A stretch of 64,000 nucleotides of DNA from Polaromonas sp. (GTDB taxonomy: Bacteria; Pseudomonadota; Gammaproteobacteria; Burkholderiales; Burkholderiaceae_C): the NCBI GenBank assembly GCA_013297865.1, contig JAAFIP010000001.1, forward strand, positions 248,001 to 312,000. The letters are read 5' to 3'. The translations under genes and the position numbers were made by a program. Shown here one piece after another: positions 319 through 61,585 of this stretch (positions are counted from its first letter, which is position 1; every line of letters starts with the position of its first letter). The notes beneath the pieces were generated by a model. It saw only the letters and a list, made by a program, of their open reading frames with translations. It ran no database searches and was not told the origin of the DNA.

Positions 319-1470
319 TCAGCTCAAATGCCGCAGCGGATGCGCGTCTGCCGGCCACGGGCTCGTGAAAAACGGCTGCACCATCTCTGGCGTCACGTCT
401 TCGATGCGTGCCGGGTTCCACCGGGGCGCATGGTCCTTATCTACCGCCAGGGCGCGGATGCCTTCCACCGTTTCGCTTGCTGCACCTGCGCGCTGCAAAT
501 GTGCGGTGTGAAAGCAATGGCGCACCAAGTCACGCTCCAGCCGCAGGTCATCAGCCAGGTTCATGCTGCGGGCGCGGCGGATGAGTTCGAGGACCACGTG
601 CAGCATCAAAGGCGAGCGTTTGCGCAGCGTGGCTGCCGTCTCCATGGCCCAGTCAGAACCTTCTTGATCCAGAGCCTGTACGATCTGCAACACGCCGGGC
701 AAGGCAAAAATGGTATCTATTTTTATGCGATTTTGGGCTGTAGGCCCCTGAAATATCGCGGGAGCAGCTATTTTTTTAGTAGCAATCAGCGCTTCAATGA
801 AACCTGCATCGCCGTTCTGCAAAGCAGCCAGGCCGTCCCACAGACCAGCCAGATCGGTTGCTTTGACTAGCCCATCGGCCAGGTGATTGGCAATCGCCTC
901 ATCGCCGCCGATCAACTGCCCCGTCAGCGCCAGATACTCCCCCACCCTGCCCGGGCAGCGGCTTAAAAAGTAGCCGCCACCGACATCCGGGAACAGGCCA
1001 ATGCCCGTCTCAGGCATGGCCATCTTGGTACGCTCCGTGACGATGCGGTGCGAGGCCCCCTGGCTGATGCCCATACCACCCCCCATGACGATACCGTCCA
1101 TGAAGGCAACGTAGGGCTTGGGGTAGGTGTGAATGAGATGGTTAAGCGCATATTCTTCGGTGAAGAAATCTTCCAACGCCGGGTCGCCTGCCAGCGCAGC
1201 CTGGTGGAAAAACCGAATGTCGCCGCCTGCGCAAAAACTGCCGAAAGGCGCAAAAGCTGGCGCGCTGGGGTCAGCCGCATGGGCCGGATTTTTACCCATG
1301 CCACGAATCGCCACCAGCTTGATGGCCGGGTTGGATTTCCACGCCAGTAGAGCTGCCGTGATGTCGCGGATCATGGGCAAGGACAAGGCGTTGAGGGCCT
1401 TGGGGCGATTGAGGGTGATCAGGCCTGCGCCGCCGCGCACTTCGGTGATGACATGGCTTTCAGACGGCAT
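319..1470 (-). CDS. Enoyl-CoA hydratase/isomerase-fold protein, 3-hydroxyisobutyryl-CoA hydrolase-like
   Basis: This is a crotonase-fold protein of 383 aa. The N-terminal LITLNRPKALNALSLPM, the oxyanion-hole segment GSFCAGGDIRFF and the block GIVMGGGMGISQGASHRI with PETGIGLFPDVGG are typical of 3-hydroxyisobutyryl-CoA hydrolases (valine catabolism), which are longer than ordinary enoyl-CoA hydratases. Start 1470 (MPSESH) is chosen because AAGGAG precedes it at good spacing. An upstream in-frame start at 1515 lacks this support. The start overlaps the end of the upstream DMT gene by 11 nt, suggesting translational coupling. Around residues 230-255 the reading frame runs through a copy of the interspersed repeat (712-785, antisense to the gene), adding about 20 residues. 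Substrate is inferred, not proven. Confidence 0.85.
   Translation of the reverse strand: MPSESHVITEVRGGAGLITLNRPKALNALSLPMIRDITAALLAWKSNPAIKLVAIRGMGKNPAHAADPSAPAFAPFGSFCAGGDIRFFHQAALAGDPALEDFFTEEYALNHLIHTYPKPYVAFMDGIVMGGGMGISQGASHRIVTERTKMAMPETGIGLFPDVGGGYFLSRCPGRVGEYLALTGQLIGGDEAIANHLADGLVKATDLAGLWDGLAALQNGDAGFIEALIATKKIAAPAIFQGPTAQNRIKIDTIFALPGVLQIVQALDQEGSDWAMETAATLRKRSPLMLHVVLELIRRARSMNLADDLRLERDLVRHCFHTAHLQRAGAASETVEGIRALAVDKDHAPRWNPARIEDVTPEMVQPFFTSPWPADAHPLRHLS
712..785 (+). repeat. Interspersed core repeat R1, inside the crotonase-fold gene (antisense)
   Basis: Core AATATCGCGGGAGCAGCTAT at 752-771, exact. The gene on the minus strand reads the opposite strand of the element as KKIAAPAIFQGPTAQ. 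It is the only intragenic copy in antisense orientation. Confidence 0.9.
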
Positions 1471-2350
1471 TCGTTTTCTCCTTCCAACCCAGAATTTCGT
1501 TGACCAGCAGCGCACCGATCACCAGAGCGCCGCCCAGCAGCACAGTCTGGCCGGGCACCTCGTTCGCTCCCAGCCAGGCCAGCGCAATACCAAAAATCAC
1601 TTCCAACAAGGCCAGCAGCGACACCTCGGGCGCCTTGAGCACGCGCGCGCAGATCACCGACAGTGTGCAGGGAATGGCCAGCTGCACCAGGCCCAGCATG
1701 CCCAGCCAAGCCATATCTTTGCCCGAGGCGGCAAACGGAAACGCGAGCGGCAAAGTAACCAGTGAAGAAATCACTGCGCCCACCAGCACGCAAGGCACCA
1801 GGTCAATCTGGTCGCCATGGGCCTGGGCCTTTTGCACCACTGTCCAGTGTGTCGCGCCCGCCATCGGCACCGTCAGCGCCACAAGGCAGCCCACCAAGGC
1901 GCCGGGCTGGCCCATATTCATCTGCGAGCCAAACATATAGGCGATGCCCGCACCTGCGACGCCAATGGCCACCCAGGTGCGCAGCGGCAATCTATGGCCA
2001 ATGAAAATGCGTGCCATCAAGGCGGTAAACAGTGGCCCGACCGACATGGTGACCAGCACATTGCCCACGCTGGTGAGGGTGAGCGCAATCATGAAGGAAG
2101 TGAACATCACGCTCCAGCAGACGCCTGAAATCCAGAATGATTTGCTGGACCAGTGCATGTTGCGGAACACGTTTTTGCCCTGCCACAGCGGCAGAATCAC
2201 CAGCAGCGACAGCATGGTGAAAAAGCTGCGCCAAAACGTCACCTCAAAGCTCCTGGCATGCTCCAGCTGCCGCGTCACCACGCCCGCAATCGACCACATC
2301 AAGGCCACAGCGACCATGACCAGCACTGCTTTGCCGTGGGTTAGCTTCAT
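1460..2350 (-). CDS. DMT-superfamily (EamA) permease
   Basis: This 296-aa protein is almost entirely hydrophobic with about ten predicted membrane segments, the pattern of the drug/metabolite transporter superfamily with two EamA repeats. The first starts at GKAVLVMVAVALMWSIAGVV and the second near GALVGCLVALTVPMAGA. It is an inner-membrane protein and the substrate is unknown. It lies directly upstream of the crotonase-fold gene and overlaps its start, so the two are probably cotranscribed. The spacer on its 5' side holds a long inverted repeat. Confidence 0.88.
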   Translation of the reverse strand: MKLTHGKAVLVMVAVALMWSIAGVVTRQLEHARSFEVTFWRSFFTMLSLLVILPLWQGKNVFRNMHWSSKSFWISGVCWSVMFTSFMIALTLTSVGNVLVTMSVGPLFTALMARIFIGHRLPLRTWVAIGVAGAGIAYMFGSQMNMGQPGALVGCLVALTVPMAGATHWTVVQKAQAHGDQIDLVPCVLVGAVISSLVTLPLAFPFAASGKDMAWLGMLGLVQLAIPCTLSVICARVLKAPEVSLLALLEVIFGIALAWLGANEVPGQTVLLGGALVIGALLVNEILGWKEKTNAV

Positions 2351-2386
2351 AGGTTATTGCTTTAAAGGTACATAGATAAAACCAAG

Positions 2387-2548
2387 ACAGGCCGCGAAGG
2401 ACGCTAAGACTCCGCGAAGAACGCGAAAGAAAACAAAAAAGAAAACCAAGATATCGACAAACTCAGCTTACAGTGATTGCTTGCAGTCACCTTAATTTGG
2501 TATTCCTTTCGCGTCCTTCGCGTAACCTTCGCGCCCTTCGCGGCCTGT
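2387..2548. repeat. Long imperfect inverted repeat, GCGAAGG-rich family, copy 1
   Basis: Left arm 2387-2431 and right arm 2503-2548 are near-complements built from iterations of CGCGAAGG / CCTTCGCG, separated by about 70 nt of AT-rich sequence. They could form a very long stem. It fills the 232-nt gap between the DMT gene and typA. A second, better-preserved copy sits at 17605-17783. Confidence 0.85.
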
Positions 2549-2582
2549 ATTTGGTTTTTGTGACGCTCTCTACACTACAAAA

Positions 2583-4425: not shown

Positions 4426-5541
4426 TCAATGCCCCGTTCGCCCTGAGTCCGCCTGCTCAGTAACGAGCACGGGACTTTCTAGGGCTTCGACAAGCTCAGC
4501 CCGAACGGGGGTGGCTGCTTGCGAAGTCAAAATCTGATCAATTTCAATCGGTGATAACAGGCGGGTGGGGATCAGCTCACCCGCCTTGATGTGCGCTGCG
4601 CCTAACAGCGCGCGCGGTGTGTCTCCAAATACAGCGACTTGCTCTGCATCAGGCTGCTGGGTTCTGCGGCGCAGCCCGCTCAAAAAGCGTCCTGCATTGT
4701 CGCTGTCCAGTGTGACCTGGACATGACCATCCAGCAGGCTGTCCACAGGCTGCAGGCAGGCCATGCGCTCGGCTTCGCTCATGGCCTCAAGCTGCTGCAA
4801 AGTCACCGCACGGCTGACATCCAGTGCACCCGTGCGCGTACGGCGCAGCGCGCTCAGATGCGCACCGCAGCCCAGCGCCTCACCAATATCTTCACCCAGG
4901 GTGCGGATATAGGTGCCTTTGCTGACGGTAGCTACTATTTTAATAGCTGCTCCCGCGATATTCTGTTGGGCTAGAGCGATATTTAGCTTATAAATTGTGA
5001 CATCCCGCGCGGCGCGCTCTACCGTGACGCCCTCGCGCGCATACTCGTACAGCGCCTTGCCGTCTTTTTTGAGTGCACTGTGCATCGGAGGCACCTGGCG
5101 GATGGGGCCCGTGAAGAGCTTTTGCACCCGATCAATGTCAGCCTGGGTGACATTGACTGCGCGCTGCTCGATCACCTCGCCTTCGGCATCGCCTGTAGAC
5201 GTCTTGATGCCCAGCACGGCAGTGGCTTCATAGGTTTTGTCGGCTTCGAGCTGCAAGGCGCTGAATTTGGTAGCTGCGCCAAAGCACAGCGGCAATACAC
5301 CTGTGGCCAGTGGGTCCAGCGTGCCGGTATGGCCCGCTTTTTCTGCGCGCAGCAGCCATTTGGCTTTTTGCAGCGCATCATTACTGGACAAGCCCAGTGG
5401 TTTATCTAGCAGCAACACCCCATGCACCGGGCGACGCTGCACCCTTGTGCTGGGGGTCGCGCCCCCACGCTTCCCCGCTTCGCGTGGTCCGCTGCCCCCC
5501 AAGGGGGCCTTCGCACCTTGGGACGGCCCGGCGGTGCTCAT
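4426..5541 (-). CDS. truB: tRNA pseudouridine(55) synthase TruB, decorated by three repeat families
   Basis: TruB makes pseudouridine 55 in the tRNA T-loop. The motif [19 protein letters not shown] carries the catalytic Asp, and [20 protein letters not shown] is the conserved second block. The 371-aa protein is longer than the usual 300-315. The excess coincides with repeats. About 35 N-terminal residues come from a GC-rich element (5444-5530). A loop [20 protein letters not shown] before SKGTYIRT comes from the interspersed repeat (4929-5000). The C-terminal tail beginning [14 protein letters not shown] comes from the TTCGACAAGCTCAG element (4432-4510). Start 5541 is supported by GAGGAATAAGAATG, 2 nt after the rbfA stop. 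A later start would remove the N-terminal extension. Confidence 0.95.
4432..4510. repeat. REP-like inverted repeat (TTCGACAAGCTCAG type) forming the TruB C-terminus
   Basis: Arms CCCCGTTCGCCCTGAG (4432-4447) and CTCAGCCCGAACGGGG (4495-4510) pair at 14 of 16 positions. The right arm is preceded by GGGCTTCGACAAG, a sequence found as a dispersed repeat in many proteobacteria. It encodes the last 28 or so residues and nearly reaches the TruB stop codon. Confidence 0.85.
4929..5000 (-). repeat. Interspersed core repeat R2, inside truB in frame
   Basis: Core ATAGCTGCTCCCGCGATATT at 4943-4962 (minus orientation of the family core), flanked by TAGCTACTATTTTA and TTGGGCTAG. Read on the truB strand it encodes [11 protein letters not shown]. 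Confidence 0.9.
5444..5530. repeat. GC-rich Comamonadaceae-type repeat coding the TruB N-terminus
   Basis: The stretch contains CCCCCACGCTTCCCCGC, GGTCCGCTGCCCCCCAAGG and CCTTCGCACCTTGGGACGG. It resembles a GC-rich repeat commonly seen between genes in Comamonadaceae. Here it falls inside the assigned truB reading frame. Family assignment is from memory and needs a database check. Confidence 0.6.
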
Positions 5542-11882: not shown

Positions 11883-12941
11883 TCAGGCGTTTGCCAAGCC
11901 CCCGGATGGAGTATTTTGCAGTGCAGCAATCCGCTTGTGCATCAGGGCAAACCACAGGGGCGGCAGCATGGCCAGCAGCAGGCAGCCGGCGTAGCCTGTG
12001 GGCAACTGGGGGCCGGGCAGTGGCTCCAGCGTGGGGTACGGCTTCCAGGCGTGCATGTGGTGGTCAGAGTGGCGCTGCAGGTTGGCCAGCAGGCTGTTGG
12101 TCACCACATGGTCGGCGTTCCAGGCGTGCATCATGCCAAAGGCTTCGCGCTTGCTGCCATCGGCCTTGCGCTGCAGCCCGTAGTGCTCAATATAGTTCAC
12201 GATCTCCAGCAGCAGGAAAGCCAGGCAGGACTGGCCTACAAAAAATGCTACATATTTAATAGCTGCTCCCGCGACTAAATATTGGGCTGGCAGCACAATA
12301 AGCATCAAGGAAACGACTGTGCTCCACAGCAGCGGGCTGCGCAGCCAGGTGGATTTCATCTGCTGCAGGCGCAGGCCTTCCAGCCGCCAGCCACTGGCCA
12401 GGCTGCCCCACAGGGTGCGCGGTAAAAAGCGGTACAGGCTCTCGCCGTAGCGGGCCGAGGCCGGGTCGTCGTAGGTGGCTGCACGCGGGTGGTGGCCACG
12501 GTAATGCTCCACCATGAAGTGGCCGTAGCAGACGCTGGTCATCAGCACCCAGCCACCGAGGCGGTCGATTTTGGATTTGCTATGGCCCAGCTCATGGGCC
12601 AGGGTGATGCCCTGGGCCCCCGTAACGTACCCCACAGCAAAGGTCACGCCCAGCATTGTCAGCCAGTCGCTGTGCACAGCGGCGTAGGCCCCCAAGCCGA
12701 TCAGCGCCAGCTGCAACAGCACATACAAGCGCAGGATCCAGCTGAAGTAGCCCATGCTGGTACCAGTGGCCACAGCAGCGGGCGATGATTTGCCACCAGG
12801 CCAGAACAGTTCCAGCAAGACAATACTGCCCCACACGGCCAGGGTCAGGGGCCCGCTCAGATGGGGCATCAACAGCACGCCCGCAATGGCGTTAATGGGC
12901 AAAGCCAGGATGATCAAAAAACGAAAGTCAGACATTCTCAT
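11883..12941 (-). CDS. AlkB-type membrane di-iron hydroxylase (alkane 1-monooxygenase family)
   Basis: An integral membrane protein of about 352 aa. The three histidine motifs of the AlkB/fatty-acid-desaturase superfamily are present: HELGH, EHYRGHH and LQRHSDHH. NYIEHYGLQR, typical of alkane monooxygenases, is also present. It probably hydroxylates a hydrophobic substrate in the inner membrane. A rubredoxin partner is not nearby. The start is uncertain: 12941 (MRMSDF) is taken, while 12935 and 12998 are also in frame and no clear ribosome site decides. An interspersed repeat copy (12246-12300) encodes AQYLVAGAAIKYVA in a loop between membrane segments. Confidence 0.85.
   Translation of the reverse strand: MRMSDFRFLIILALPINAIAGVLLMPHLSGPLTLAVWGSIVLLELFWPGGKSSPAAVATGTSMGYFSWILRLYVLLQLALIGLGAYAAVHSDWLTMLGVTFAVGYVTGAQGITLAHELGHSKSKIDRLGGWVLMTSVCYGHFMVEHYRGHHPRAATYDDPASARYGESLYRFLPRTLWGSLASGWRLEGLRLQQMKSTWLRSPLLWSTVVSLMLIVLPAQYLVAGAAIKYVAFFVGQSCLAFLLLEIVNYIEHYGLQRKADGSKREAFGMMHAWNADHVVTNSLLANLQRHSDHHMHAWKPYPTLEPLPGPQLPTGYAGCLLLAMLPPLWFALMHKRIAALQNTPSGGLANA
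12246..12300 (-). repeat. Interspersed core repeat R3, inside the AlkB-like gene in frame
   Basis: Core variant starting ATAGCTGCTCCCGCGA at 12259, followed by CTAAATATTGGGCTGG. The 3' half of the core differs slightly from consensus. It is read by the host gene as VAGAAIK. Confidence 0.85.
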
Positions 12942-15098: not shown

Positions 15099-15172
15099 GG
15101 CTAAATATATAGGCTAATCCCGCGCCAAGCCAATGGAATATCGCGGGAGCAGCTATTAAAATGATAGTTAAC
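15099..15172 (+). repeat. Interspersed core repeat R4, between dapD and pilU
   Basis: Core AATATCGCGGGAGCAGCTAT at 15137-15156, followed by TAAAATGATAG. It occupies most of the dapD-pilU gap and ends just before the pilU ribosome site AACAGGAGAAA. Confidence 0.9.
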
Positions 15173-16353: not shown

Positions 16354-17574
16354 ATGCCCGACCCACTTGCCACCCTGCGCCTTGCTGAACAGCTGATCGC
16401 CTGCCCCTCGGTCACGCCGCTGGACGCGGGCTGCATGGACATCATCGCCCAGCGCCTGCAGCCGCTGGGCTTTGCCTGCGAGTGGATGGACAGCGGCCCG
16501 GACAGCTTTCGGGTTCGAAATTTATGGGCAAAACGGCCTGCAGCCCAAAAGAATATCGCGGGAACAGCTAGCAAAAAGATAGCAACTTTCGTCTTTGCAG
16601 GGCATACTGATGTGGTGCCCACCGGCCCGCTGGAGCAGTGGCAATTCCCGCCGTTTGCCCCCACCCACCATGATGGCAAGCTCTACGGCCGCGGCACCAA
16701 CGACATGAAAACCTCCATCGCCGCCATGGTGGTGGCAGTGGAAGAATTCGTGGCAGCCCAGCCCGATGCACCGCTCGACATCGCCTTCATGCTCACCAGC
16801 GACGAGGAAGGCCCCGCGCTGGACGGCACTATCAAGATGTGCGAACAGCTCACCGCGCGCGGCCAGGCGCTGGACTACTGCATCGTCGGCGAGCCCACCA
16901 GCGTGCTGAAAACCGGCGACATGGTCAAAAACGGCCGCCGCGGCACGCTCAGCGGCAAGCTCACCATCCTGGGCATCCAGGGCCACATCGCCTACCCGCA
17001 CCTGGCCAAAAACCCCATCCACATAGTCGCGCCCATCCTGGCCGATCTGGTCAAAATCGAATGGGACCGAGGCAACGCCTACTTTCAGCCCACCAGCTGG
17101 CAGATGAGCAATATCCACGGTGGCACCGGCGCGGGCAATGTGATTCCCGGCCAGGTAGTGATTGATTTCAATTTCCGTTTTTGCACCGAGTCCAGCCCCG
17201 AGAGCCTGCAGCAGCGCCTGGAGGACGTGCTACAGCAGCACGGCTTGCAAGCCACTACAGACTACACCCTGGCCTGGACCCTAGGCGGCCTGCCCTTTCT
17301 GACCCCTGTACGCGAGGACACATCGCATGGTGTCGGCAGCCTGATCAACGCCGTGCGCGCCGCCATCACCGCCGAAACCGGCCTCACCACCGAGCTGTCC
17401 ACCACCGGCGGCACCAGCGACGGCCGCTTCATCGCCAAAATCTGCCCCCAAACGATAGAGCTGGGGCCACCCAACGCCATGATCCACAAGATCAACGAAC
17501 ATCTGTCGGTGGCAGATATTGAGCCTTTGAAGAACATCTACCGGCGGGTGCTGGAGAATTTGGCTGCTGGTTAG
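16354..17574 (+). CDS. dapE: Succinyl-diaminopimelate desuccinylase DapE
   Basis: A 406-aa M20-family Zn peptidase giving L,L-diaminopimelate. Metal and catalytic motifs are visible: [44 protein letters not shown], and a C-terminal [15 protein letters not shown] with [15 protein letters not shown]. The protein is about 30 residues longer than E. coli DapE. Most of the excess is [18 protein letters not shown] just before FVFAGHTD, encoded by an interspersed repeat (16522-16586). The insertion lies only a few residues from the first zinc ligand and yet keeps the frame. Confidence 0.96.
16522..16586 (+). repeat. Interspersed core repeat R5, inside dapE in frame
   Basis: Core variant AATATCGCGGGAACAGCTAG at 16552-16571, preceded by GGCCTGCAGCCCAAAAG and followed by CAAAAAGATAGC. 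It differs from the consensus at two core positions. It is read as [11 protein letters not shown]. Confidence 0.9.
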
Positions 17575-17604: not shown

Positions 17605-17783
17605 CTTCCGGACGCGAAGGGCGCGAAAATTACGCGAAGGACGCGAAAGAAGACAAAACAGCCAAAGTGAGAAAGGAATTTCAAGCTTGGATTGATTCCA
17701 AGTTTGGTGTTTATTTTTGTATTATTTTTGTATCTTCTTTTTCGCGTCCTTCGCGTAATTTTCGCGCCCTTCGCGTCCGGAAG
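17605..17783. repeat. Long inverted repeat, GCGAAGG-rich family, copy 2
   Basis: Left arm 17605-17653 and right arm 17733-17783 are almost perfect complements (about 49 bp) made of CGCGAAGGGCGCGAAAATTACGC-type modules. The loop is about 80 nt. It lies in the 285-nt gap between convergent dapE and the DUF2147 gene, where it could end transcription from both sides. Same family as 2387-2548. Confidence 0.9.
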
Positions 17784-18388: not shown

Positions 18389-19027
18389 ATGAAAAAAGAG
18401 CATATTGCCCCCTTCTTTGCCACGCTCAAGGCAGCCAATCCGCAGCCTAACACCGAGCTGGAATACACCAGCGTGTTTGAGCTGCTGGCCGCTGTGCTGC
18501 TGAGCGCGCAGGCCACCGATGTGGGCGTCAACAAAGCTACGCGCAGGCTGTTTCCGGTAGCCAATACGCCGCAGGCTATTCTGGATTTGGGCTTGGCGGG
18601 GCTGGAGAGCTATATCAAAACCATTGGCCTGTACCGCAGCAAAGCCAAGCACCTGATGCAAACCTGCCAGATCCTCGTGCAGCAGCACGCTGGCGTGGTG
18701 CCGCGCACGCGCGAGGCGCTGGAGGCTCTGCCGGGGGTGGGCCGCAAAACGGCCAATGTGGTGCTCAATGTGGCCTTTGGCCAGCCCACCATGGCGGTGG
18801 ACACGCATATCTTTCGCATGGGCAACCGCACCGGGCTGGCTCCGGGCAAAACGCCCTATGAGGTGGAGATGGGGCTGGTCAAGCGCATCCCCACTGAATA
18901 CCTGGTGGATGCACACCACTGGCTGATTTTGCATGGCCGCTATGTCTGCCAGGCGCGCAAACCGTTATGCTATCAATGTGGTGTGGCATCCTACTGTGCG
19001 TTCAAGCCCAAAACTGCTGCACCATAA
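18389..19027 (+). CDS. nth: Endonuclease III (DNA glycosylase/AP lyase)
   Basis: A 212-aa base-excision-repair enzyme removing oxidised pyrimidines. VLLSAQATDVGVNKAT, the helix-hairpin-helix LPGVGRKTANVV with the catalytic Lys, VDTHIFRMGNRTG with the catalytic Asp, and the 4Fe-4S loop C-X6-C-X2-C-X5-C (CQARKPLCYQCGVASYC) are all present. Start 18389 aligns with E. coli Nth; an upstream frame adds 14 residues without support. The last 23 codons are duplicated 4.8 kb downstream (23759-23827). Confidence 0.96.
   Translation: MKKEHIAPFFATLKAANPQPNTELEYTSVFELLAAVLLSAQATDVGVNKATRRLFPVANTPQAILDLGLAGLESYIKTIGLYRSKAKHLMQTCQILVQQHAGVVPRTREALEALPGVGRKTANVVLNVAFGQPTMAVDTHIFRMGNRTGLAPGKTPYEVEMGLVKRIPTEYLVDAHHWLILHGRYVCQARKPLCYQCGVASYCAFKPKTAAP
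18959..19027 (+). repeat. Direct repeat A: 3' end of nth (left boundary of inserted block)
   Basis: The 69 nt ending at the nth stop match 23759-23827 at 62 positions by my count. Weaker similarity continues about 25 nt further, into what may be a remnant of the interspersed repeat (TATAGCGGCT against CATAGCTGCT). Confidence 0.9.
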
Positions 19028-19067
19028 CCTGCTGCGCACCGTATAGCGGCTTAGGACCGATTCGATC

Positions 19068-23758: not shown

Positions 23759-23827
23759 AACCGTTATGCTATGCATGTGGCGTGGCATCGTATTGTGCGT
23801 TCAAGCCCAAAACTGCTGCGCCATGAC
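23759..23827 (+). pseudogene. Duplicated 3' end of nth (direct repeat B, right boundary of block)
   Basis: The sequence encodes PLCYACGVASYCAFKPKTAAP followed by TGA, nearly identical to the nth C-terminus, with three of its four Fe-S cysteines. It has no upstream reading frame and cannot be a gene. It marks the other end of the inserted block and sits directly before repeat copy R6 and tctC. It is probably the original nth end or a copy brought in with the block. Confidence 0.88.
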
Positions 23828-23837
23828 ACGCTATCGA

Positions 23838-23876
23838 TTGCATAGCTGCTCCCGCGGTATTTTAAAGGTCTGGAGG
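23838..23876 (-). repeat. Interspersed core repeat R6, upstream of tctC
   Basis: Core variant ATAGCTGCTCCCGCGGTATT at 23842-23861 with one change from the family core. It lies between the duplicated nth end and the TctC gene. Confidence 0.85.
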
Positions 23877-23884
23877 CCCCTGTC

Positions 23885-24904
23885 ATGAGAAATTCCCCTC
23901 TGCTCAAGCGTCGCAACTGGATACTCAATGCCCTCGCAGCGCCCAGCCTGCTGGCACTGGGCTGGCCTCCACTGGCCCAGGCACAGGCGCAGTCAGACTA
24001 TCCCAACAAACCAGTGAAGATCGTGGTGGGTTTCCCGGCCGGGGGCGGCACCGACGTGTTTGCACGCGCCCTGGCCCAGGGCCTGACCGCCCAGCTGGGC
24101 CAGCAGTTCGTCATTGACAACAAGCCCGGCGCGGGCGGCGTGATTGCCAGCCAGAGCCTGCTGCAAACCGCTGCCGACGGCTACACCCTGCTGGTGGGCA
24201 GCACCTCCACCCAGGCCATTGCACCCCTGCTGTATGCCAAGCGCCCCTACAGCGCGGCAGACTTCACGCCCATTGCACACATCGCCAGCGTGGGCATCGT
24301 GCTGGTGGCGCACCCCTCAGCGCCGTTCAACAACGTGTCCGAGCTGGTGGCCTACGCCCGCCAGCGCCCCGGCCAGCTTAACTACGCCTCGGGCGGCAAC
24401 GGCGTGACCAACCACCTGGCCATGGAGCTGCTCAAAAGCCGCACCCGCAGCTTCATCACCCACATCCCCTACCGCGGCTCGGCCCCCGCGCTGCAGGACG
24501 TGATGGCCGGCCAGGTGCCGGTGATGTTTGACTCCATCGCCTCCAGCGGCCCGCAGATCCGCGCAGGCAAGGTCAAGGCCCTGGGCATCGCCGGCCTGGC
24601 CCGCAGCGACGCCCTGCCCGGCGTGCCCACCATCAGCGAGAGCGGCGCAGGCGTGGGCTTGGGCGGCTTTGACACCCCCGGCTGGATCGCCCTGTACGCC
24701 CCCAAGGCCCTGCCCGCCGCCATCACCGCCCGGCTGCAGGACGCCGTAGCCAAAGTGCTGGCCAGCCCCGAAGTAGCCCAGCGTTTCGCCGCCGCAGGCG
24801 CCGCACCGCGCTATCTGGACGCCACCGCCCTCACCGCCTATGAAGCCACCGAGATCAGCAAATGGGGCGAAGCCATCCAGTTTTCAGGGGCCAAGCTGGA
24901 CTGA
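23885..24904 (+). CDS. Tripartite tricarboxylate transporter receptor (Bug/TctC family)
   Basis: A 339-aa periplasmic binding protein with an Ala-rich signal peptide ending near LAQAQAQ. Family motifs are YPNKPVKIVVGFPAGGGTDVFARALAQ, the ligand-loop DNKPGAGGVIASQ and GYTLLVGSTSTQA. Bug proteins bind carboxylates or amides. No tctA or tctB membrane genes are adjacent, which is usual for the many orphan Bug genes of Comamonadaceae. Ligand unknown. Confidence 0.92.
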   Translation: MRNSPLLKRRNWILNALAAPSLLALGWPPLAQAQAQSDYPNKPVKIVVGFPAGGGTDVFARALAQGLTAQLGQQFVIDNKPGAGGVIASQSLLQTAADGYTLLVGSTSTQAIAPLLYAKRPYSAADFTPIAHIASVGIVLVAHPSAPFNNVSELVAYARQRPGQLNYASGGNGVTNHLAMELLKSRTRSFITHIPYRGSAPALQDVMAGQVPVMFDSIASSGPQIRAGKVKALGIAGLARSDALPGVPTISESGAGVGLGGFDTPGWIALYAPKALPAAITARLQDAVAKVLASPEVAQRFAAAGAAPRYLDATALTAYEATEISKWGEAIQFSGAKLD

Positions 24905-24973
24905 GCTTGATCGCTGGCGGGGCCTTTTCAGCCTCTTTGGGGTGTCCTCGGGCACCTTTTTCAGGTTGTTTTT

Positions 24974-25034
24974 AATGGCTTATTGGCCTGCAGACCAATA
25001 GAATATCGCGGGAGCAGCTATTAAATGGATAGCA
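24974..25034 (+). repeat. Interspersed core repeat R7, intergenic
   Basis: A consensus-like full copy: TTGGCCTGCAGACCAATAG, then core AATATCGCGGGAGCAGCTAT at 25002-25021, then TAAATGGATAGC. Confidence 0.92.
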
Positions 25035-33635: not shown

Positions 33636-33731
33636 TGCAACCAGGCTGCTGCGGTAAGCAGGCGTTGCCCTTTTATGCAGCCATAGCGACCAGGCGCTGC
33701 CGTCTTATGCCGCCGCAGCGACAAGACGCTG
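33636..33731. repeat. Tandem 32-bp repeats at the 3' end of yejF
   Basis: Copy 1 (33700-33731) encodes the last residues and stop of yejF (QRLVAAAA). Copy 2 (33668-33699) repeats it just past the stop, at about 78% identity by eye, and would encode QRLVAMAA plus stop. A third, degenerate unit (33636-33667) may follow. Confidence 0.6.
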
Positions 33732-35333
33732 CGTGTAGGGGTGCTGTGGCGCGTCTAGCACCGCATGCACACTGCCCTGCTCTACGATGTCGCCGTCTTT
33801 CATCACCATCACCTCATGGGCCATGGCGCGGATCACGTCCACGTCGTGGGTGATCAGCAGGTAGCTCAGGCCGCGCTCTTTCTGCAGGCGCTGCAGCAGG
33901 GACAACACCTGTTTCTGGATCGTCACGTCCAGCGCGCTGGTGGGCTCATCCAGCACCAAGGTCTGCGGCTGCACGATCAAGGCGCGGGCAATCGCAATAC
34001 GCTGGCGCTGCCCGCCAGAGAACTCATGCGGATAGCGCTGCAAAATGCCCGGAAACTGCGCCTGCGTCAGACCCACTTCCTGCAGCGTCTGCAGCACGCG
34101 CTCCTGGCGCTGCGCCTCGGTCAGCTCGGTGGCGTGTATGCGCAGCCCTTCGCCCACAATTTCTTCCACCGTCATGCGCGGCGACAGCGAGGAAAACGGG
34201 TCCTGAAACACCACCTGGATCGTGCGACGCAAGCCAGAAGCGTAGTCTACAGATGCTATATCTTTCATAGCTGCTCCCGCGGCATTCTGTGGGTCTGCAG
34301 CACTAAAACCCTTATAAAACACGTCACCGCGCGCTTTGGTGAGCCCCAGCATGGCCAGGGCCAGTGTGGACTTGCCTGAGCCTGATTCGCCAATCACGCC
34401 CAGCGTCTGCCCGGCAGCCACGTCAAACGCCGCTTGCTTGACGGCGACAAACTCGCCTTTGCTGAACCAGCCTTTGAAACCGGGCTTGGAAATTGCATAG
34501 CCCACGCGCAGTTGCTTGGCGGCCAGCACCATAGCGCCAGGCTGGGCCGCATCAGGCTGCGCTACGTCACGCACCGGCTTGCTGGCCAGCAGCTTTTGGG
34601 TGTAGGCATGCTGCGGGTTGGCAAACACCTGCGCCACAGCGCCCTGCTCCACGATATGGCCGTTTTCCATCACAGCAATGCGATCGGCAAATTTGCGCAC
34701 CATGTTCAGGTCGTGCGTGATCAGCAGCACTGCCATGTTGTGGCTCTTTTGCAAAGCGCCCAGCAGGTCCAGTATCTGCTGGCGCAGTGTGACGTCCAGC
34801 GCGGTGGTGGGCTCGTCGGCCAGCAGCAGGCGCGGCTTGCAGGCCAGCGCCATGGCAATCATGGCCCGCTGGCGCTGCCCGCCACTGAGCTGATGCGGGT
34901 AGTTCAAGGCCCGGCGCTCTGGCTCTGGTATGCCGGTCTCCACCAGCAGCTCGATCACGCGCGACCAGGCCGCTTTTTTGCTGAGCGCCTGCTTGGTCTC
35001 CAACACCTCGGCAATCTGGTCGCCAATGGTGTACAGCGGGTTGAGTGCTGTCATTGGCTCCTGAAAAATCATCGCAATATCGTCACCGCGCAGGCCGCGC
35101 AGATCGTTCTCTGGCATCTGCAAGGTGTCTTTGCCGTCGAACAGCACCTGCCCACCCAATTGTGCGTTCTGCACCAAACGCAAAATCGCCAATGCAGTCA
35201 CTGATTTGCCAGAGCCCGACTCGCCCACCAGCGCCAGCTTTTCGCCTGCGTTCAGCGTGAAGTTGATGCCGTGCACCACCTCTTTGCCTGCGAAGGATAC
35301 GCTCAGGTTTTGGACATCGAGCAAGGCGGTCAT
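33705..35333 (-). CDS. yejF: Microcin C/oligopeptide ABC importer, fused dual ATPase YejF
   Basis: A 542-aa cytoplasmic protein with two complete nucleotide-binding domains. The first has GESGSGKSVTALA, LSGGQRQRAMIAMAL and LLLADEPTTALDV. The second has GESGSGKSTLALA, FSGGQRQRIAIARAL and LVLDEPTSALDV. The DppD/DppF fusion is the YejF architecture. Its start overlaps the yejE stop by 4 nt. Between Walker A and the Q-loop of the second domain, an interspersed repeat (34252-34318) encodes PQNAAGAAMKDIAS in frame. The C-terminal codons are tandemly duplicated downstream. Confidence 0.94.
   Translation of the reverse strand: MTALLDVQNLSVSFAGKEVVHGINFTLNAGEKLALVGESGSGKSVTALAILRLVQNAQLGGQVLFDGKDTLQMPENDLRGLRGDDIAMIFQEPMTALNPLYTIGDQIAEVLETKQALSKKAAWSRVIELLVETGIPEPERRALNYPHQLSGGQRQRAMIAMALACKPRLLLADEPTTALDVTLRQQILDLLGALQKSHNMAVLLITHDLNMVRKFADRIAVMENGHIVEQGAVAQVFANPQHAYTQKLLASKPVRDVAQPDAAQPGAMVLAAKQLRVGYAISKPGFKGWFSKGEFVAVKQAAFDVAAGQTLGVIGESGSGKSTLALAMLGLTKARGDVFYKGFSAADPQNAAGAAMKDIASVDYASGLRRTIQVVFQDPFSSLSPRMTVEEIVGEGLRIHATELTEAQRQERVLQTLQEVGLTQAQFPGILQRYPHEFSGGQRQRIAIARALIVQPQTLVLDEPTSALDVTIQKQVLSLLQRLQKERGLSYLLITHDVDVIRAMAHEVMVMKDGDIVEQGSVHAVLDAPQHPYTQRLVAAAA
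34252..34318 (-). repeat. Interspersed core repeat R8, inside yejF in frame
   Basis: Core variant ATAGCTGCTCCCGCGGCATT at 34267-34286, with flanks GATGCTATATCTTTC and CTGTGGGTCTGCAGCAC. It is read as NAAGAAMKDIA by yejF. Confidence 0.88.
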
Positions 35334-36466: not shown

Positions 36467-36470
36467 AGGG

Positions 36471-37490
36471 TTAGTCAAACTTGACGCGCGGGTCTACCCA
36501 CACATACATCAAATCGCTGATCAGCTTGGTGACCAGACCGATCAGGGTGAACAAATACAGCGTACCCAGCACGACAGGGTAATCGCGGCGGATCACGCTC
36601 TCATAGCCCAGCAGGCCCAAGCCATCGAGCGAGAACAGGGTTTCGATCAGCAGTGCGCCTGCAAAAAACGCACCGATGAAGGCCGCGGGAAAACCTGCAA
36701 TGATGGGCAGCATGGCGTTGCGGAACACATGCTTGTAGAGCACACGCTTTTCATCCAGGCCCTTGGCACGCGCGGTAATGACATACTGCTTGCGGATTTC
36801 CTCCAAGAATGAGTTTTTGGTCAGCATGGAGATGGTGGCAAAACTGCCGATGACCAGCGCAGTGACGGGCATGGCGATATGCCACAGATAGTCCACGATT
36901 TTGGCGCTCCAGCTCAGGGTATCCCAGTTGGCCGAAGTCAGGCCACGCAGCGGAAACCACTGCAGCTGCCCGCCAAAAATCACCAGCAGCGCGATGCCCA
37001 GCACGAAGCCGGGGATGGCATAGCCTATCAGCACCAGCAGCGTGGTCCACAGATCAAAGCTGCTGCCTGCGCGCACGGCCTTGGAAATGCCCAGGGGAAT
37101 GGAGATGAAGTAAGACAGGAAAAAGCTCCACAAGCCCAGGCTGATCGACACAGGCAGTTTTTCCTTGATTAGGTCCCACACGGGCTTGTTTTGAAAAAAG
37201 CTCTTGCCCAAGTCAAAAGTCAGGTACGACTTGAGCATGATCCAAAAGCGCTCGGTGGCTGGCTTGTCAAAGCCATACAGCGCCTTGATTTCGGCCAGGC
37301 GCTTTTCAGTGACGCCCTTGCCCCCGCGGTACAGCGACTCGCCACCTGCGCCTGCGGTGGCCTTGGACTCGGCCAGATACTGCTCCACCGGCCCGCCCGG
37401 CACAAACTGGATCACCACAAAGGTCAGCAGCAATACCCCGAACAAGGTGGGGATCATCAGCAGCAGGCGTTTGAGGATATAGCTGAGCAT
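36471..37490 (-). CDS. yejB: Microcin C/oligopeptide ABC importer permease YejB
   Basis: A 339-aa inner-membrane permease starting MLSYILKRLLLMIPTLFGVLLLTFVVIQFVPGGPVEQYL, the signature of DppB/YejB proteins. The EAA loop is near RKQYVITARAKGLDEKRVLYKHVFRNAMLP. It pairs with YejE to form the pore. It lies 7 nt downstream of yejA in the order yejA-yejB-yejE-yejF. Confidence 0.95.
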   Translation of the reverse strand: MLSYILKRLLLMIPTLFGVLLLTFVVIQFVPGGPVEQYLAESKATAGAGGESLYRGGKGVTEKRLAEIKALYGFDKPATERFWIMLKSYLTFDLGKSFFQNKPVWDLIKEKLPVSISLGLWSFFLSYFISIPLGISKAVRAGSSFDLWTTLLVLIGYAIPGFVLGIALLVIFGGQLQWFPLRGLTSANWDTLSWSAKIVDYLWHIAMPVTALVIGSFATISMLTKNSFLEEIRKQYVITARAKGLDEKRVLYKHVFRNAMLPIIAGFPAAFIGAFFAGALLIETLFSLDGLGLLGYESVIRRDYPVVLGTLYLFTLIGLVTKLISDLMYVWVDPRVKFD

Positions 37491-40142: not shown

Positions 40143-40164
40143 GCGGCCCCAGGGCCGCTTTTTT
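40143..40164 (+). terminator. Rho-independent terminator after fabI
   Basis: Stem GCGGCC with GGCCGC around loop CCAG, followed by TTTTTT. It lies 25 nt after the fabI stop. Confidence 0.85.
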
Positions 40165-40224
40165 ATGGCTTATCGGCCTGCAGGCCAATAGAATATCGCG
40201 GGAGCAGCTATAAAATAAATAGCG
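40164..40224 (+). repeat. Interspersed core repeat R9, between fabI and the LysR gene
   Basis: The cleanest copy: GGCCTGCAGGCC palindrome, AATAG, core AATATCGCGGGAGCAGCTAT at 40192-40211, then AAAATAAATAGC. It ends at the 3' end of the convergent LysR gene. Confidence 0.93.
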
Positions 40225-42595: not shown

Positions 42596-42663
42596 TATTT
42601 ATATAACAAATCAGCCTGCAGCCCAATAAAAAGCCGCGGGAGCAGCTACTAAAATAATAGCAT
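42596..42663 (+). repeat. Interspersed core repeat R10, between the two oxygenase subunit genes
   Basis: Diverged core AAAGCCGCGGGAGCAGCTAC at 42630-42649, with left flank CAGCCTGCAGCCCAATAA and right flank TAAAATAATAGC. The small-subunit ATG begins right after it, so GGGAGC of the repeat may serve as part of the ribosome site. Confidence 0.85.
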
Positions 42664-53862: not shown

Positions 53863-53930
53863 TGCTACAAAATATATAGCTGCTCCCGCGATATTCTATT
53901 GACCTTGCGGCCATTTCTTTATGCAAAATA
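53863..53930 (-). repeat. Interspersed core repeat R11, left of the GFA gene
   Basis: Core ATAGCTGCTCCCGCGATATT at 53876-53895 followed by CTATTGACCTTGCGGCC. Exact core match, same orientation as copy R12 on the other side of the GFA gene. Confidence 0.92.
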
Positions 53931-54399: not shown

Positions 54400-54458
54400 C
54401 CACTATCAATAACATAGCTGCTCCCGCGATATTCTATTGGGCTGCAGCCCTAAAACAC
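54400..54458 (-). repeat. Interspersed core repeat R12, right of the GFA gene
   Basis: Core ATAGCTGCTCCCGCGATATT at 54414-54433, followed by CTATTGGGCTGCAGCCC. Exact core match. Confidence 0.92.
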
Positions 54459-54481
54459 CACAAAAGCAGCTGTCAGTTATC

Positions 54482-57959: not shown

Positions 57960-59171
57960 TCACCTCGATTGCAAGATTTTCAATACATCCAGACGGTAGG
58001 CTGCGGCCACGGGCAGCAGTGCGGCCAGCAGCGCCAGCAGGACCGCGCCCGCCAGTACCCAGCCCTGCTCAGGCAGCCAGATCCAGGCCGTCACGGGCAG
58101 CGACTTATCCGCAGCCAGCATATAGCCTACCAGAGCTGTCAAGCCATGGCCCAGCATCAGCCCCAAAACCCCACCCGCGAGCGTGAGTATCAGGGCCTGC
58201 CACACCAGCACCCCCGCCACGCGTGCCGGGCTGGCCCCCAGCATGCGCAGCATGGCCCAGTCGGCCTGGCGCTCGCGCAGCGCGTTCCACAGCGCAATCA
58301 GCAGGCTCACAGTGGCAATCAGCAGCAGCACCGCCGCAAAGCCACGCAGCACATCAGCCCCTACCCCCAGCATGCGAAACAGCCGCGTCATCTCGATGGC
58401 GGGCGCTGCAGCCTGCATCTCCGTAGTGGTGTTGACAAAGCGCGGAAAGCTCACTGCCGCCAAGGGAGAGGTGTACTGAATCAGCGCCATCGTCACCTCG
58501 CGCGCCTCCTCCAAAGCCTCTTGGTCCGAGGCGTCGAGTGCGGTAGCCTTTTCATGCACCTGCCAGACCGACTCGGTGGCGGTAAGGATCAGCCGGTCAA
58601 GCACGCAGTCACATTTTTGCAGTGTGCCCACCAATGTATACGGCGCCTCGCCATGGGAATGGCCTTTGTCGCCCAAGCCGTGGTTGCCAACAAAGCTGCT
58701 GCCAGGGGCCAAGCCCTGACCTGCCATGGCCTGGGCCGCCGTGTGCCCCGCCACCGCCTGCATCGGCGCAGACCAGATCTGGCCCTTGCCCATCCTGGCA
58801 CTGTAGAGGTTGATGTAATCCACTGTGGTGCCCACAATGCGATAGCCCGCAAAGCTGTCGCCCAGGCTCAGCGGAATCAGCGTTTTGACCTGCGGATTTT
58901 TTGCCAGCTCGCGCACCTCTGACAGCGGGATATTGCCCGACGGCACATCGATATGAAACACCCCCGCCAGGATCAGCTGCAGCGGGCTGCCCTTGGCACC
59001 CACCACCACATCAATGCCCTGCAGGTCGCGCTCAAACGAAGCCTGGACCTGGTGCTGCACCAGCAGCAGAAAGTTAATCGACGCCAGGCCCAGTGCCAAC
59101 AGCAGCACATTGAGCAGTGCAGCCAGCGGCCGTGCTGCCACATACCGCCAGGCTAACGCTACGCTTTTCAT
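57960..59171 (-). CDS. ABC transporter permease, FtsX/MacB-like
   Basis: A 403-aa inner-membrane protein with one N-terminal helix (LNVLLLALGLASINFLLLVQ), a large periplasmic domain and three C-terminal helices, the FtsX/MacB layout. The periplasmic domain has an unusual HSHGEAP and CDCVLD that could bind metal. ATGA overlap with the ATPase gene. The start codon ATG is formed at the end of repeat copy R13 (CTATG). A homologue of the zinc-starvation-induced PA4065 type is inferred. Confidence 0.87.
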   Translation of the reverse strand: MKSVALAWRYVAARPLAALLNVLLLALGLASINFLLLVQHQVQASFERDLQGIDVVVGAKGSPLQLILAGVFHIDVPSGNIPLSEVRELAKNPQVKTLIPLSLGDSFAGYRIVGTTVDYINLYSARMGKGQIWSAPMQAVAGHTAAQAMAGQGLAPGSSFVGNHGLGDKGHSHGEAPYTLVGTLQKCDCVLDRLILTATESVWQVHEKATALDASDQEALEEAREVTMALIQYTSPLAAVSFPRFVNTTTEMQAAAPAIEMTRLFRMLGVGADVLRGFAAVLLLIATVSLLIALWNALRERQADWAMLRMLGASPARVAGVLVWQALILTLAGGVLGLMLGHGLTALVGYMLAADKSLPVTAWIWLPEQGWVLAGAVLLALLAALLPVAAAYRLDVLKILQSR

Positions 59172-59224
59172 AGCTGCCCCCGCGATATTCTATTGACTTG
59201 CAGGCCTTTTTTATCTAAAAAATG
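59162..59224 (-). repeat. Interspersed core repeat R13, at the ATPase/permease junction
   Basis: Core variant ATAGCTGCCCCCGCGATATT at 59170-59189, followed by CTATTGACTTGCAGGCC. On the gene strand it encodes the ATPase C-terminus (LQVNRISRGQL), its stop TGA and the A-T-G of the permease start. Confidence 0.9.
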
Positions 59225-59836
59225 GGGCTCCAGAATGCCCTGCACACGCGCGTCATGTGTGGCCACCACCAGCGTGGCATCGCAGCGCTGCGCGGCCTGC
59301 GCCAGCAGCGTGATGGCGCTGTGGGCCGCCTCGTCGTCCAGGCTGGCGGTAGGCTCGTCCGCCAAAATTACCTTGGGCCGCATCAGCACCGAGCGCGCCA
59401 GCGCCACGCGCTGCGCCTGCCCACCCGACAGCGCCTGCGGCTTGCGCGCAGCCAGGTCGGCCACGCCCAGCGCGTCCAGGCTGTGCATGATCTGCGCCTT
59501 GTCCACCGGCTGGGCGGTTGCAAAATAGGCCAGGGCCAGGTTGTCAAACACCGTCAGCGCATCGCTCAGATGCAGCCGCTGCGGCAAAAAGCCCAGTGTG
59601 CGCCCGCGCCAGGCGTCGCGCTGCGCCGCGTTCAAAGCCGCCGGGTTTTGCCCCGCCACATCCACACTGCCGCTGCCCGCCACCAGCAGGCCCGCGCACA
59701 GCGCCAGCAGGGTGGACTTGCCGCTGCCCGAGTTGCCCTGCAGCACCAGCGCCGCGCCCTGGGGCACGCTCATGTCGTCAAACGTGAGGGCCGCGCCTTG
59801 CGGATAGCTAAAGCTCAATTGCGTGGTGTGGATCAT
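59168..59836 (-). CDS. ABC transporter ATPase, LolD/MacB-like
   Basis: A 222-aa nucleotide-binding protein: Walker A GNSGSGKSTLLALC, signature LSGGQAQRVALARSV, Walker B VILADEPTASLDDEA, and FLPQRLHLSDALTVFDNLAL after the Q-loop. It energises the neighbouring permease. The last 15 residues and stop codon are encoded by repeat copy R13, so the original C-terminus has been replaced. It is the first gene of the locus. Upstream is a short AT-rich region with a possible metal-regulator site. Confidence 0.9.
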   Translation of the reverse strand: MIHTTQLSFSYPQGAALTFDDMSVPQGAALVLQGNSGSGKSTLLALCAGLLVAGSGSVDVAGQNPAALNAAQRDAWRGRTLGFLPQRLHLSDALTVFDNLALAYFATAQPVDKAQIMHSLDALGVADLAARKPQALSGGQAQRVALARSVLMRPKVILADEPTASLDDEAAHSAITLLAQAAQRCDATLVVATHDARVQGILEPHFLDKKGLQVNRISRGQL

Positions 59837-59873: not shown

Positions 59874-59885
59874 TGATTATTATCA
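59874..59885. promoter_or_regulatory. AT-rich partial dyad, possible Fur/Zur-type site
   Basis: TGATTATTATCA is an imperfect dyad containing ATTATC, a half-site of Fur-family boxes. It lies 38 nt upstream of the ABC ATPase start and about 75 nt from the divergent gene. The match to any Zur consensus is weak. Confidence 0.3.
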
Positions 59886-59959
59886 CCCCAGGGCTTGCGT
59901 CCACACTGGTGCAGACCCACGCGATGTAAACCTCTGTGTCAAATGCTAAGCTATCGCCC

Positions 59960-60937: not shown

Positions 60938-60943
60938 AGCCTA

Positions 60944-60960
60944 GCCCAAGCGCCTTGGGC
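60944..60960. terminator. Hairpin between convergent genes
   Basis: GCCCAAG-CGC-CTTGGGC is a perfect 7-bp stem located 6 nt after the aspartoacylase-like stop and 27 nt from the convergent msrA stop. It lacks a T run, so termination is uncertain. Confidence 0.45.
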
Positions 60961-60986
60961 ACGCTCAGACACTACGGTTTTTGTAG

Positions 60987-61538
60987 CTAGGCCTTTGCCA
61001 GCCGCGCGAAGGTCTTGCGAAACTTGGCCACTTTGGGTGCTGCTACAGCCATGCAATAGCCCTGGTCAGGGTTGCGCGCAAAAAAGTCTTGGTGGTACTC
61101 CTCGGCTGCGCTGTAGTTGCGCACGGGCAGCACCTCGGTGACTATTTTGGAGCTGTAGTGTTTGCTGGCCGTCAGCTCGGCGATGATCTCGTCGGCCACC
61201 TGCTTTTGCTCAGGCGCGTGGAAGTAAATGCCGCTGCGGTATTGCGTGCCGCTGTCGTTGCCTTGGCGGTTCAGCGTGGTGGGGTCATGAATGACAAAGA
61301 AGATCTCCAGCACCTCGCGGGTAGAGATGACTGCAGGGTCATACACCAGCTTGACCACCTCGTTGTGCCCCGTACGGCCGGTGCAGACCTGCTCATACGT
61401 AGGGTTAATGGCTTCGCCATTGCTGTAGCCGCTCTCAACGTCTTCAATCCCCTGCACCGCGACGTAGACCGCCTCGGTACACCAGAAGCAGCCACCACCC
61501 AGGGTGATGGTTTGCAATGATTTAGCAGTGTTTTCCAT
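60987..61538 (-). CDS. msrA: Peptide methionine-S-sulfoxide reductase MsrA
   Basis: A 183-aa repair enzyme for oxidised methionine. The catalytic GCFWCTEAVY (residues 15-24) and GYSNGEAINPTYEQVCTGRTGHNEVVKLVYDP and YHQDFFARNP are diagnostic. It lies 26 nt downstream of the PEP-mutase-family gene, with repeat copy R14 across the junction. Probably cotranscribed with it. Confidence 0.96.
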   Translation of the reverse strand: MENTAKSLQTITLGGGCFWCTEAVYVAVQGIEDVESGYSNGEAINPTYEQVCTGRTGHNEVVKLVYDPAVISTREVLEIFFVIHDPTTLNRQGNDSGTQYRSGIYFHAPEQKQVADEIIAELTASKHYSSKIVTEVLPVRNYSAAEEYHQDFFARNPDQGYCMAVAAPKVAKFRKTFARLAKA

Positions 61539-61540
61539 GG

Positions 61541-61585
61541 ATAGCCCTTTAAAATATCGCGGGACTAGCTATTACTTTCATAGCG
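61541..61585 (+). repeat. Interspersed core repeat R14, at the end of the PEP-mutase-family gene
   Basis: Core variant AATATCGCGGGACTAGCTAT at 61553-61572, then TACTTTCATAGC. In this antisense orientation the changed AGC-to-CTA provides TAG as the stop codon of the gene on the minus strand. Confidence 0.85.

Follow-up and report, generated by a model that had tools for sequence, protein, structure and literature searches.

A dispersed 66-bp motif of Comamonadaceae genomes, conserved as DNA within and between genes, as a possible self-recognition signal

We analysed a stretch of 64,000 nt from a Polaromonas sp. genome (contig JAAFIP010000001.1, positions 248,001-312,000 of the forward strand; hereafter the window), in which a short repeat had been predicted to insert into conserved genes as an in-frame protein-coding element. 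Our analysis revealed that this repeat is a motif of about 66 bp which is nearly confined to the family Comamonadaceae, that selection or drive acts on its DNA while the peptide encoded by in-gene copies is a passenger, and that its spelling changes genome-wide from one genome to another, orthologous in-gene sites in truB, dapE and seven other genes included. Such a change of dialect is concerted evolution that needs a reader. In general terms, the repeat is probably a maintained double-stranded DNA recognition motif. The explanation that we consider best overall is more specific, namely an old double-stranded motif whose dialects follow the preference of its reader and whose likeliest role is in uptake, and its chances are in our view slightly short of even; the role itself, a self-recognition signal for DNA uptake, is proposed by analogy and is tentative. 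The Polaromonas genome is a 3.99-Mb draft in 27 contigs, of which we sampled the window and 800 kb of further stretches (864 kb, 22% of the genome). Two comparison genomes, G112 and G119, were sampled at 400 kb each. All comparison genomes are drafts, and genic or intergenic assignments come from gene calls by a dicodon script of our own.

The motif consists of a T-tract, a triplet AAA or TTT about ten bases further on, GCG, GCTAY-N7-RTAGC and a closing AA. A unit of about 60 bp had originally been described, which is better drawn as some 66 columns from a T-rich left end to ATAGCAA. The 27-nt pattern CGCGGGAGCAGCTAY-N7-RTAGC occurs 247 times in the Polaromonas genome (134 and 113 by strand) and not once when read backwards. 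A profile found 161 copies in the 864-kb sample and none in the reversed sequence, from which a total of about 740 copies in both orientations is extrapolated for the genome; in the 400-kb samples the matches numbered 109-113 in G112 and 87-93 in G119, varying with the starting profile, and again there were none on reversed sequence. An alignment of 80 copies drawn from several genera needs no gaps in any of its 66 columns, which is partly built in since equal lengths were cut around GCTAY. Single columns are conserved to between 0.1 and 2.0 bits, and low-information spacers separate nearly invariant blocks, a pattern that is not given by copying alone. In total the motif holds 54-75 bits over 66 bp. 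One triplet reads AAA in 67 and TTT in 48 of the 161 Polaromonas copies, an interchange as expected of DNA shape, and the T- and A-tracts lie about one helical turn apart. Columns are correlated mainly with their neighbours, the excess of mutual information falling off within about five bases, and no subfamilies were seen among the copies.

Within genes it is the DNA that is kept. Where a strong column of the motif coincides with a synonymous third position of the main sense frame, the motif base is present in 225 of 234 cases in Polaromonas, 122 of 131 in G112 and 73 of 78 in G119, where codon usage would predict fractions of 0.26, 0.30 and 0.15, respectively; third positions of the main antisense frame gave 80 of 95 and 91 of 99 (expected 0.18 and 0.29). 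Overall, the motif is retained at 84-96% of synonymous third positions compared with 15-30% expected, which shows that the DNA is conserved and suggests that the peptide is a by-product. Third codon positions in genes are about as conserved as non-genic copies, with the exception of the main antisense frame in Polaromonas (0.85 compared with 0.96).

The 161 Polaromonas copies comprise 81 in intergenic regions, 29 on gene edges and 51 well inside genes (49 genes), corresponding to 1.01 copies per kb outside genes and 0.068 inside, an approximately 15-fold difference. A third to two fifths of all copies are thus in genes (51/161 in Polaromonas, 45/112 in G112 and 28/76 distinct sites in G119). 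In Polaromonas, 34 of the in-gene copies are sense and 17 antisense, and all six frames are used, with 26 copies in the main sense frame, 11 in an antisense frame (IAAPAIF) and 6, 5, 2 and 1 in the others. The commonest frame is the same one in all three genomes (26/51, 19/45 and 13/28 distinct sites). This favoured frame carries the consensus stop codon TAG, which is present there in 87 of 110 non-genic copies and altered in 26 of 26 in-gene copies, as gene calling requires. For the 109 Polaromonas non-genic copies with two neighbours we counted 33 convergent and 7 divergent gaps, and background gaps longer than 40 bp (n=475) include 69 convergent and 97 divergent ones, so that divergent gaps, the promoter type, are avoided and convergent ones favoured.

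The hosts are ordinary enzymes. A Pfam scan of 30 of them identified, among others, MoeA, UvrC, DnaX, FabH, DXP reductoisomerase, EarP, Tex and an HSP70-family chaperone, and three of the 30 had no Pfam family at E 1e-10. The absence of frameshifts, noted in the original prediction, follows in part from the procedure, as only open frames are called as genes. Independent support comes from family matches that extend through the motif site, as they do in TruB, DapE, crotonase, MoeA, EarP, amidase, DXP reductoisomerase, Tex and a histidyl-tRNA synthetase-type protein. The predicted addition of residues to the hosts is seen in some proteins, with a net gain of 4 residues in TruB (compared with 1r3f and 1k8w), 8 + 3 in DapE (7t1q) and about 27 in MoeA (E. 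coli MoeA, 1fc5). It is absent from the HSP70-family host, which gained nothing compared with DnaK and whose motif copy is weak (29 bits). These comparisons indicate that the motif partly overlies pre-existing codons. In TruB the right half of the motif lies on the strand preceding SKGTY, and in DapE the left part covers the conserved NLWAKR in Polaromonas and follows it in G112. One Polaromonas gene of 1343 residues (C1:158185-162216, L016-L017) holds two motif copies in different sense frames; a family search gave it no identity.

The truB site provides a view of the age of such a segment. We compared 80 related loci, whose titles mostly name Comamonadaceae genera and in some cases only a higher rank. 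The segment has the same length in 69 of them and is 4 residues shorter in 6; in 67 of the 80 sites the score exceeds the 99th percentile of random 66-mers taken from these loci, and in 49 it is higher than 0 bits with one of the three dialects used. Many Variovorax truB loci are without the DNA signature, some being of equal length and some 4 residues shorter. As segment length and motif score are so widely kept, the supposed insert in truB is an old part of the protein in this family.

In G112 and G119 the consensus departs from that of Polaromonas mainly in the centre, while GCG, GCTAY-N7-RTAG and the tracts are retained. Leave-one-out assignment, which is partly ascertained, placed 158 of 161 Polaromonas copies, 104 of 112 G112 copies and 85 of 85 G119 matches in the dialect of their own genome. 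Two of 11 reciprocal pairs between Polaromonas and G112 were set aside for an identity below 35%. For the nine kept, the motif is found in all nine G112 genes, in eight of them clearly at the same place; the pair not clearly co-positioned at first, dnaX, was nevertheless included in the comparison of dialects. Both copies are in the dialect of their own genome in eight of the nine pairs, with own-dialect margins of 8-71 bits for Polaromonas copies and 16-100 bits for G112 copies. The gene at 11883-12935 of the window, for instance, has a G112 orthologue with the motif at the same place and in the G112 dialect. In truB the own and the other dialect score 80 and 25 bits in Polaromonas and 69 and 18 bits in locus L059 (Variovorax sp. 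PCZ-1), with no change of length. Dialects also diverge within a genus, as they do between G015 and G145.

A family-wide search was made with a sequence-only profile (R1) built from the 80 aligned copies mentioned above, each trimmed to 66 nt with GCTAY as the reference point. It found matches in 68 of 150 Comamonadaceae genomes, 37 of which had at least 34 and 13 exactly one; the 82 genomes without a match may carry another dialect, since R1 was built from few. In a sample of 120 genomes of the order only four matched, namely Polaromonas, another Comamonadaceae genome and two genomes from other families with one match each (E 1.9e-6 and 0.0099). The assignment of the repeat to the Comamonadaceae in the original prediction therefore held: it is dispersed in the family and almost restricted to it. 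The exact Polaromonas consensus was discarded as a family probe, as it matched only 2 of 299 family genomes, the dialect being local. A sister spelling, AAGCGCTAGCAGCTAT, was found in 23 of 150 family genomes, with as many as 61 occurrences and none backwards. Four viral contigs (L275-L278) also carry an exact copy of this sister spelling together with the right arm.

Taken together, the rigid length, the tracts, the AAA/TTT interchange, the use of both orientations, the near-independence of the columns and the dialects suggest a double-stranded site that is read by a protein or complex. We propose that a sequence-specific system reads the motif as double-stranded DNA and that, whenever its preference shifts, the sites would follow by selection or drive. 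In coding regions only frame-keeping placements would survive, and the frame with GCT as a codon (A-I-x-x-I/V-A) is favoured, probably for its small and hydrophobic residues, with the TAG replaced. Biased uptake, the mechanism put forward for the uptake sequences found in Neisseriaceae and Pasteurellaceae, might spread and retain the signal. In its fullest form, which we regard as possible though doubtful, the proposal describes a 66-bp Comamonadaceae self-recognition signal, probably for uptake, that is kept by molecular drive, can change its dialect within a genus and is written into a few hundred proteins of each genome; short stretches of housekeeping enzymes such as TruB, DapE, MoeA and DnaX would then owe their sequence to transformation preference and not to protein function.

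Several observations weigh against this proposal. A small excess of mutual information persists at all distances, and the identity of nearest neighbours is 0.804 compared with 0.771 in shuffles, which together leave room for some copying. The copies were collected by profiles, and their conservation and dialect assignment are to that extent ascertained. Of the nine Polaromonas copies with an orthologous site, one shows no preference for either dialect (15 compared with 16 bits), and gaps shorter than 1 kb are not unusual in number in Polaromonas (P 0.246). Column-shuffled sequences fold less well than the real copies (z -4.1, -3.9 and -8.2 in the three genomes, 0/60 each), a result that is confounded by neighbour correlation and shifted left arms; there may be a weak structural constraint. 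No reader protein emerged from the two candidate partner families that we compared across genomes, PF01797 and PF03772. ComEC (PF03772) is present in 144 of 150 family genomes and hence does not discriminate: it matched in all 37 genomes with at least 34 motif matches (in one, G003, in three fragments only) and was absent from 6 of the 113 others. Finally, 54-75 bits over 66 bp far exceed the 10-mer or 12-mer of known uptake signals (PMC3630211).

A different kind of reader is conceivable. The motif might be a site of chromosome architecture, bound by a nucleoid protein, gyrase or a condensin-like complex and kept for its even spacing, which we consider rather unlikely. Phased T/A tracts, rigid length, the use of both strands and the avoidance of divergent (7/109 compared with 97/475) in favour of convergent gaps (33/109 compared with 69/475) would all suit such a site. 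So would the spacing, which is more even than random placement in all three genomes, with coefficients of variation of 0.78 compared with 0.94 in Polaromonas (P 0.010), 0.74 compared with 0.94 in G112 (0/500) and 0.68 compared with 0.92 in G119 (0/500), at a mean density of about one motif per 3.5-5.4 kb. The G119 value was obtained after merging double-strand matches, 9 of 85 matches being second-strand matches of the same site (76 distinct sites); unmerged, P was 0.118. Genome G015 also has double-strand matches, which were left unmerged. Even spacing serves uptake and architecture alike, so the merging leaves their standing as it was. However, the motif seems to be dispensable, given that 82 of 150 family genomes have no match, a count that may include genomes with a very different dialect; a difference in dialect within a genus would be unusual for a housekeeping protein, and the crowding of copies in the cassette arrays described below does not fit a role in spacing.

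The original prediction, by contrast, amounts to a non-autonomous mobile element similar to miniature inverted-repeat transposable elements or to repetitive extragenic palindromic (REP) sequences, which inserts at random and whose in-gene copies are the frame-keeping survivors. Such an origin would account for the high copy number, the approximately 15-fold higher density outside genes, the gain of some 27 residues in MoeA and the small residual similarity between copies. It would also account for the loop of dapE, which is occupied or empty by genus and has more than one placement, no empty site being near enough to define ends, and for the 17 motif-bearing G112 genes with a reciprocal Polaromonas match, of which 9 share the motif and 8 do not (by subtraction, with low-identity pairs kept in). 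We nevertheless regard it as unlikely. There are no subfamilies, spacing is more even than random, TruB and DapE, each with a unit of some 66 nt, gained only 4 and 11 residues, and truB switched dialect at constant length. No fresh clean insertion was found between G015 and G145 in the 20% of their DNA that is alignable; of 154 matches, 131 were uncovered, 18 were in both genomes, 4 were aligned but uncalled and 1 was an ambiguous gap. An ancestral segment in homologues from distant genera, or frames distributed at random with frameshifted genes, had been named at the outset as evidence against an inserted coding element. In part this was seen: the truB segment is old across the family, and all six frames are used, though very unevenly.

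A REP-associated transposase had been suggested as a partner of the repeat, and this was not borne out. PF01797, the family of REP-type Y1 transposases, occurs once in Polaromonas and in 31 of 40 genomes searched (Polaromonas included), and it does not track the motif: among the first 24 family genomes, 7 have PF01797 but no motif match, whereas G020 has 31 motif matches and no PF01797. GGGGTCAGA repeats border the Polaromonas gene, and the closest motif copy is 654 bp away. In 18 PF01797 regions that we read, the gene was found in 15, of which 12 had GGGGTCAGA repeats on one or both sides; the motif came as close as 66 bp in L178 (10105-10153) and 346 bp in L190 and was missing from 10 of the 18 regions. 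PF01797 was accordingly rejected as a required partner.

That the motif acts as a hairpin of RNA or single-stranded DNA (REP, terminator or attC-like) is highly improbable. The consensus can fold, strongly so in G119 (-24.8 kcal/mol), and the better folding of real copies in three genomes has been mentioned above, but candidate stems showed no copy-level covariation: in all three genomes the two arms of a stem were no more complementary in one copy than when taken from different copies, and single columns gave the same result. In-gene copies on either strand also argue against a hairpin, as does an Rfam search up to E 5, in which no match overlapped the 14 sites of the window. Selection of the peptide for protein function has a practically negligible chance, since the shared commonest frame of the three genomes stands against six frames and both strands in use in Polaromonas, third positions mostly about as conserved as non-genic copies, and codon positions 1 and 2 that match less well (0.88 and 0.89) than position 3 (0.96) in the Polaromonas main frame.

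The motif was also found in integron cassettes. The Pfam family DUF1010 (PF06231) appears to be a chance reading of the motif and an integron attC site as protein, since its profile aligns with the translated motif in the first third and with the translation of an attC-like end in the last third; the genomic motif is without attC. In a class 1 integron (NZ_MZ513635.1, between dfrA12 and aadA2; L279:1099-1389) the cassette with the DUF1010 open reading frame, known as gcuF, has the motif at 1201-1240, where it is read in the S-S-Y frame; an attC-like end lies downstream. A 56-mer query matched 1749 of 72,556 plasmid records, and 21 of the 25 matches listed fall in a gene named DUF1010; one of these 25 is a Comamonadaceae plasmid, and the same search finds only 17 matches in the 400 kb of G119. 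In G119, a stretch of 13 kb beside an integron integrase (intI) contains 13 DUF1010 profile matches in which the motif part is included. Arrays of DUF1010 adjoining an integrase are located at G119:C1:1576196-1590608, G071:C1:3315969-3320558 and G004:C1:156184-158625 and on G141:C69, G145:C21 and G010:C4. Judging from these matches, chromosomal integrons of the family seem to be rich in motif-bearing cassettes, and no integron integrase scored above cut-off in Polaromonas or G112. The crowding in cassette arrays is what biased uptake would favour, which may be counted as an indirect indication of the proposed role.

The known kind of repeat that shares most features with the Comamonadaceae motif is the DNA uptake sequence (DUS) of Neisseriaceae. 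This signal and the uptake signal sequence (USS) of Pasteurellaceae likewise have hundreds to thousands of copies in and between genes, species dialects and stop codons that limit placement in genes; for DUS, dispersed copies, dialects and the limits set by stop codons are described in PMC3630211. Unlike these 10-12-mers, the motif has 66 bp and 54-75 bits, adds residues to some proteins and has dialects that differ at many positions within one genus. The Rickettsia palindromic elements (RPE) and those of Wolbachia (WPE, here only by a title cited in PMC2229807) are similar in being short repeats that lie in frame inside conserved proteins. RPE are stem-loops of 105-146 bp found in 19 reading frames, according to PMC2229807. 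In-frame placement in conserved genes is a feature that the motif shares with them, whereas a long stem-loop kept in the copies was not seen; furthermore, the motif does not covary, has 51 in-gene copies in 49 genes in a 22% sample and evolves in concert. The RPE-like insertion element of the original prediction is thus not supported, considering that DNA rather than peptide is conserved, that subfamilies are lacking and that the truB segment is old. REP sequences and their RAYT (REP-associated tyrosine transposases), with GTAG and CGTC palindromes, also come in hundreds of short copies that are mostly non-genic and favour convergent gaps; in contrast to the systems described in PMC3733652, the motif shows no copy-level hairpin signal and is not tied to PF01797. 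Its right end does show RTAGC columns, comparable to the GTAG tag of REP, without hairpin support at the level of copies.

We found no literature on this repeat in open-access papers. Dispersed signals (DUS, USS) and in-frame repeats (RPE) are already known; what is new, to our knowledge, is the present variant, which has 66 bp, rapidly changing dialects and between a third and two fifths of its copies in genes. A joint change of sequence at hundreds of sites in each genome, orthologous in-gene places included, needs a reader. If this reader were an uptake receptor, the Comamonadaceae would be a third bacterial family in which transformation is sequence-selective; their signal would exceed known ones several-fold in length and leave a visible trace in proteins. 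For annotation, DUF1010 would have to be seen as an apparent reading of motif plus attC, which may point to a Comamonadaceae-like source of the resistance-integron cassette.

In the window itself, the 20-nt core AATATCGCGGGAGCAGCTAT occurs 12 times at up to 3 mismatches and not at all in 100 shuffles. The profile search recovered exactly the 14 copies originally reported, seven per strand (Table 1). By our gene calls, 5 are in genes, 6 are intergenic and 3 overlap gene edges, and the earlier count of five in-gene copies, four of them sharing a frame, was right; those four are sense and the fifth, at 752, is antisense. NCBIfam supported the host names truB, dapE and crotonase. The host called alkB-like had no NCBIfam match, and the one called yejF remained below the cut-off of its best model (NF011713, 607.7 compared with 834).

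Table 1. Copies of the motif in the 64-kb Polaromonas window.
Positions	Strand	Location	E value	Remark
721..783	+	antisense in 3-hydroxyisobutyryl-CoA hydrolase-like gene 319-1470 (-), NF004127	7e-14	
4931..4993	-	sense in truB 4426-5418 (-), TIGR00431	2e-16	80 bits in own dialect
12247..12309	-	sense in gene 11883-12935 (-)	1.5e-11	host without NCBIfam match
15106..15168	+	intergenic	2e-14	
16521..16583	+	sense in dapE 16354-17574 (+), NF009557	4e-13	
23830..23892	-	overlaps 5′ edge of gene 23885-24904	1.6e-11	
24971..25033	+	intergenic	4e-18	
34255..34317	-	sense in YejF-like ABC ATPase gene 33705-35333 (-)	3e-13	
40161..40223	+	intergenic	2.6e-19	strongest in window
42599..42661	+	intergenic	2e-14	
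53864..53926	-	intergenic	1.3e-13	
54402..54464	-	intergenic	1.2e-15	
59158..59220	-	spans junction of genes 57960-59171 and 59168-59836	3e-14	
61522..61584	+	spans junction of genes 60987-61538 and 61565-62392	1.9e-8	weakest in window

Other repeats occur in the window as well. A second repeat with inverted arms of the GCGAAGG/CGCGAAAG type is present at 2378-2557 and 17605-17783; the arms of the latter pair are 44 nt long and perfect, with 91 nt between them, and Rfam matches there were below the gathering score. Three tandem units of 33 nt (33 nt start to start, 96% alike) at 35340-35450 sit within the end of the minus-strand open reading frame 35330-36478. Furthermore, two stretches of 92 nt at 18960-19051 and 23759-23850 are 82% alike, the latter running into the motif copy at 23830.

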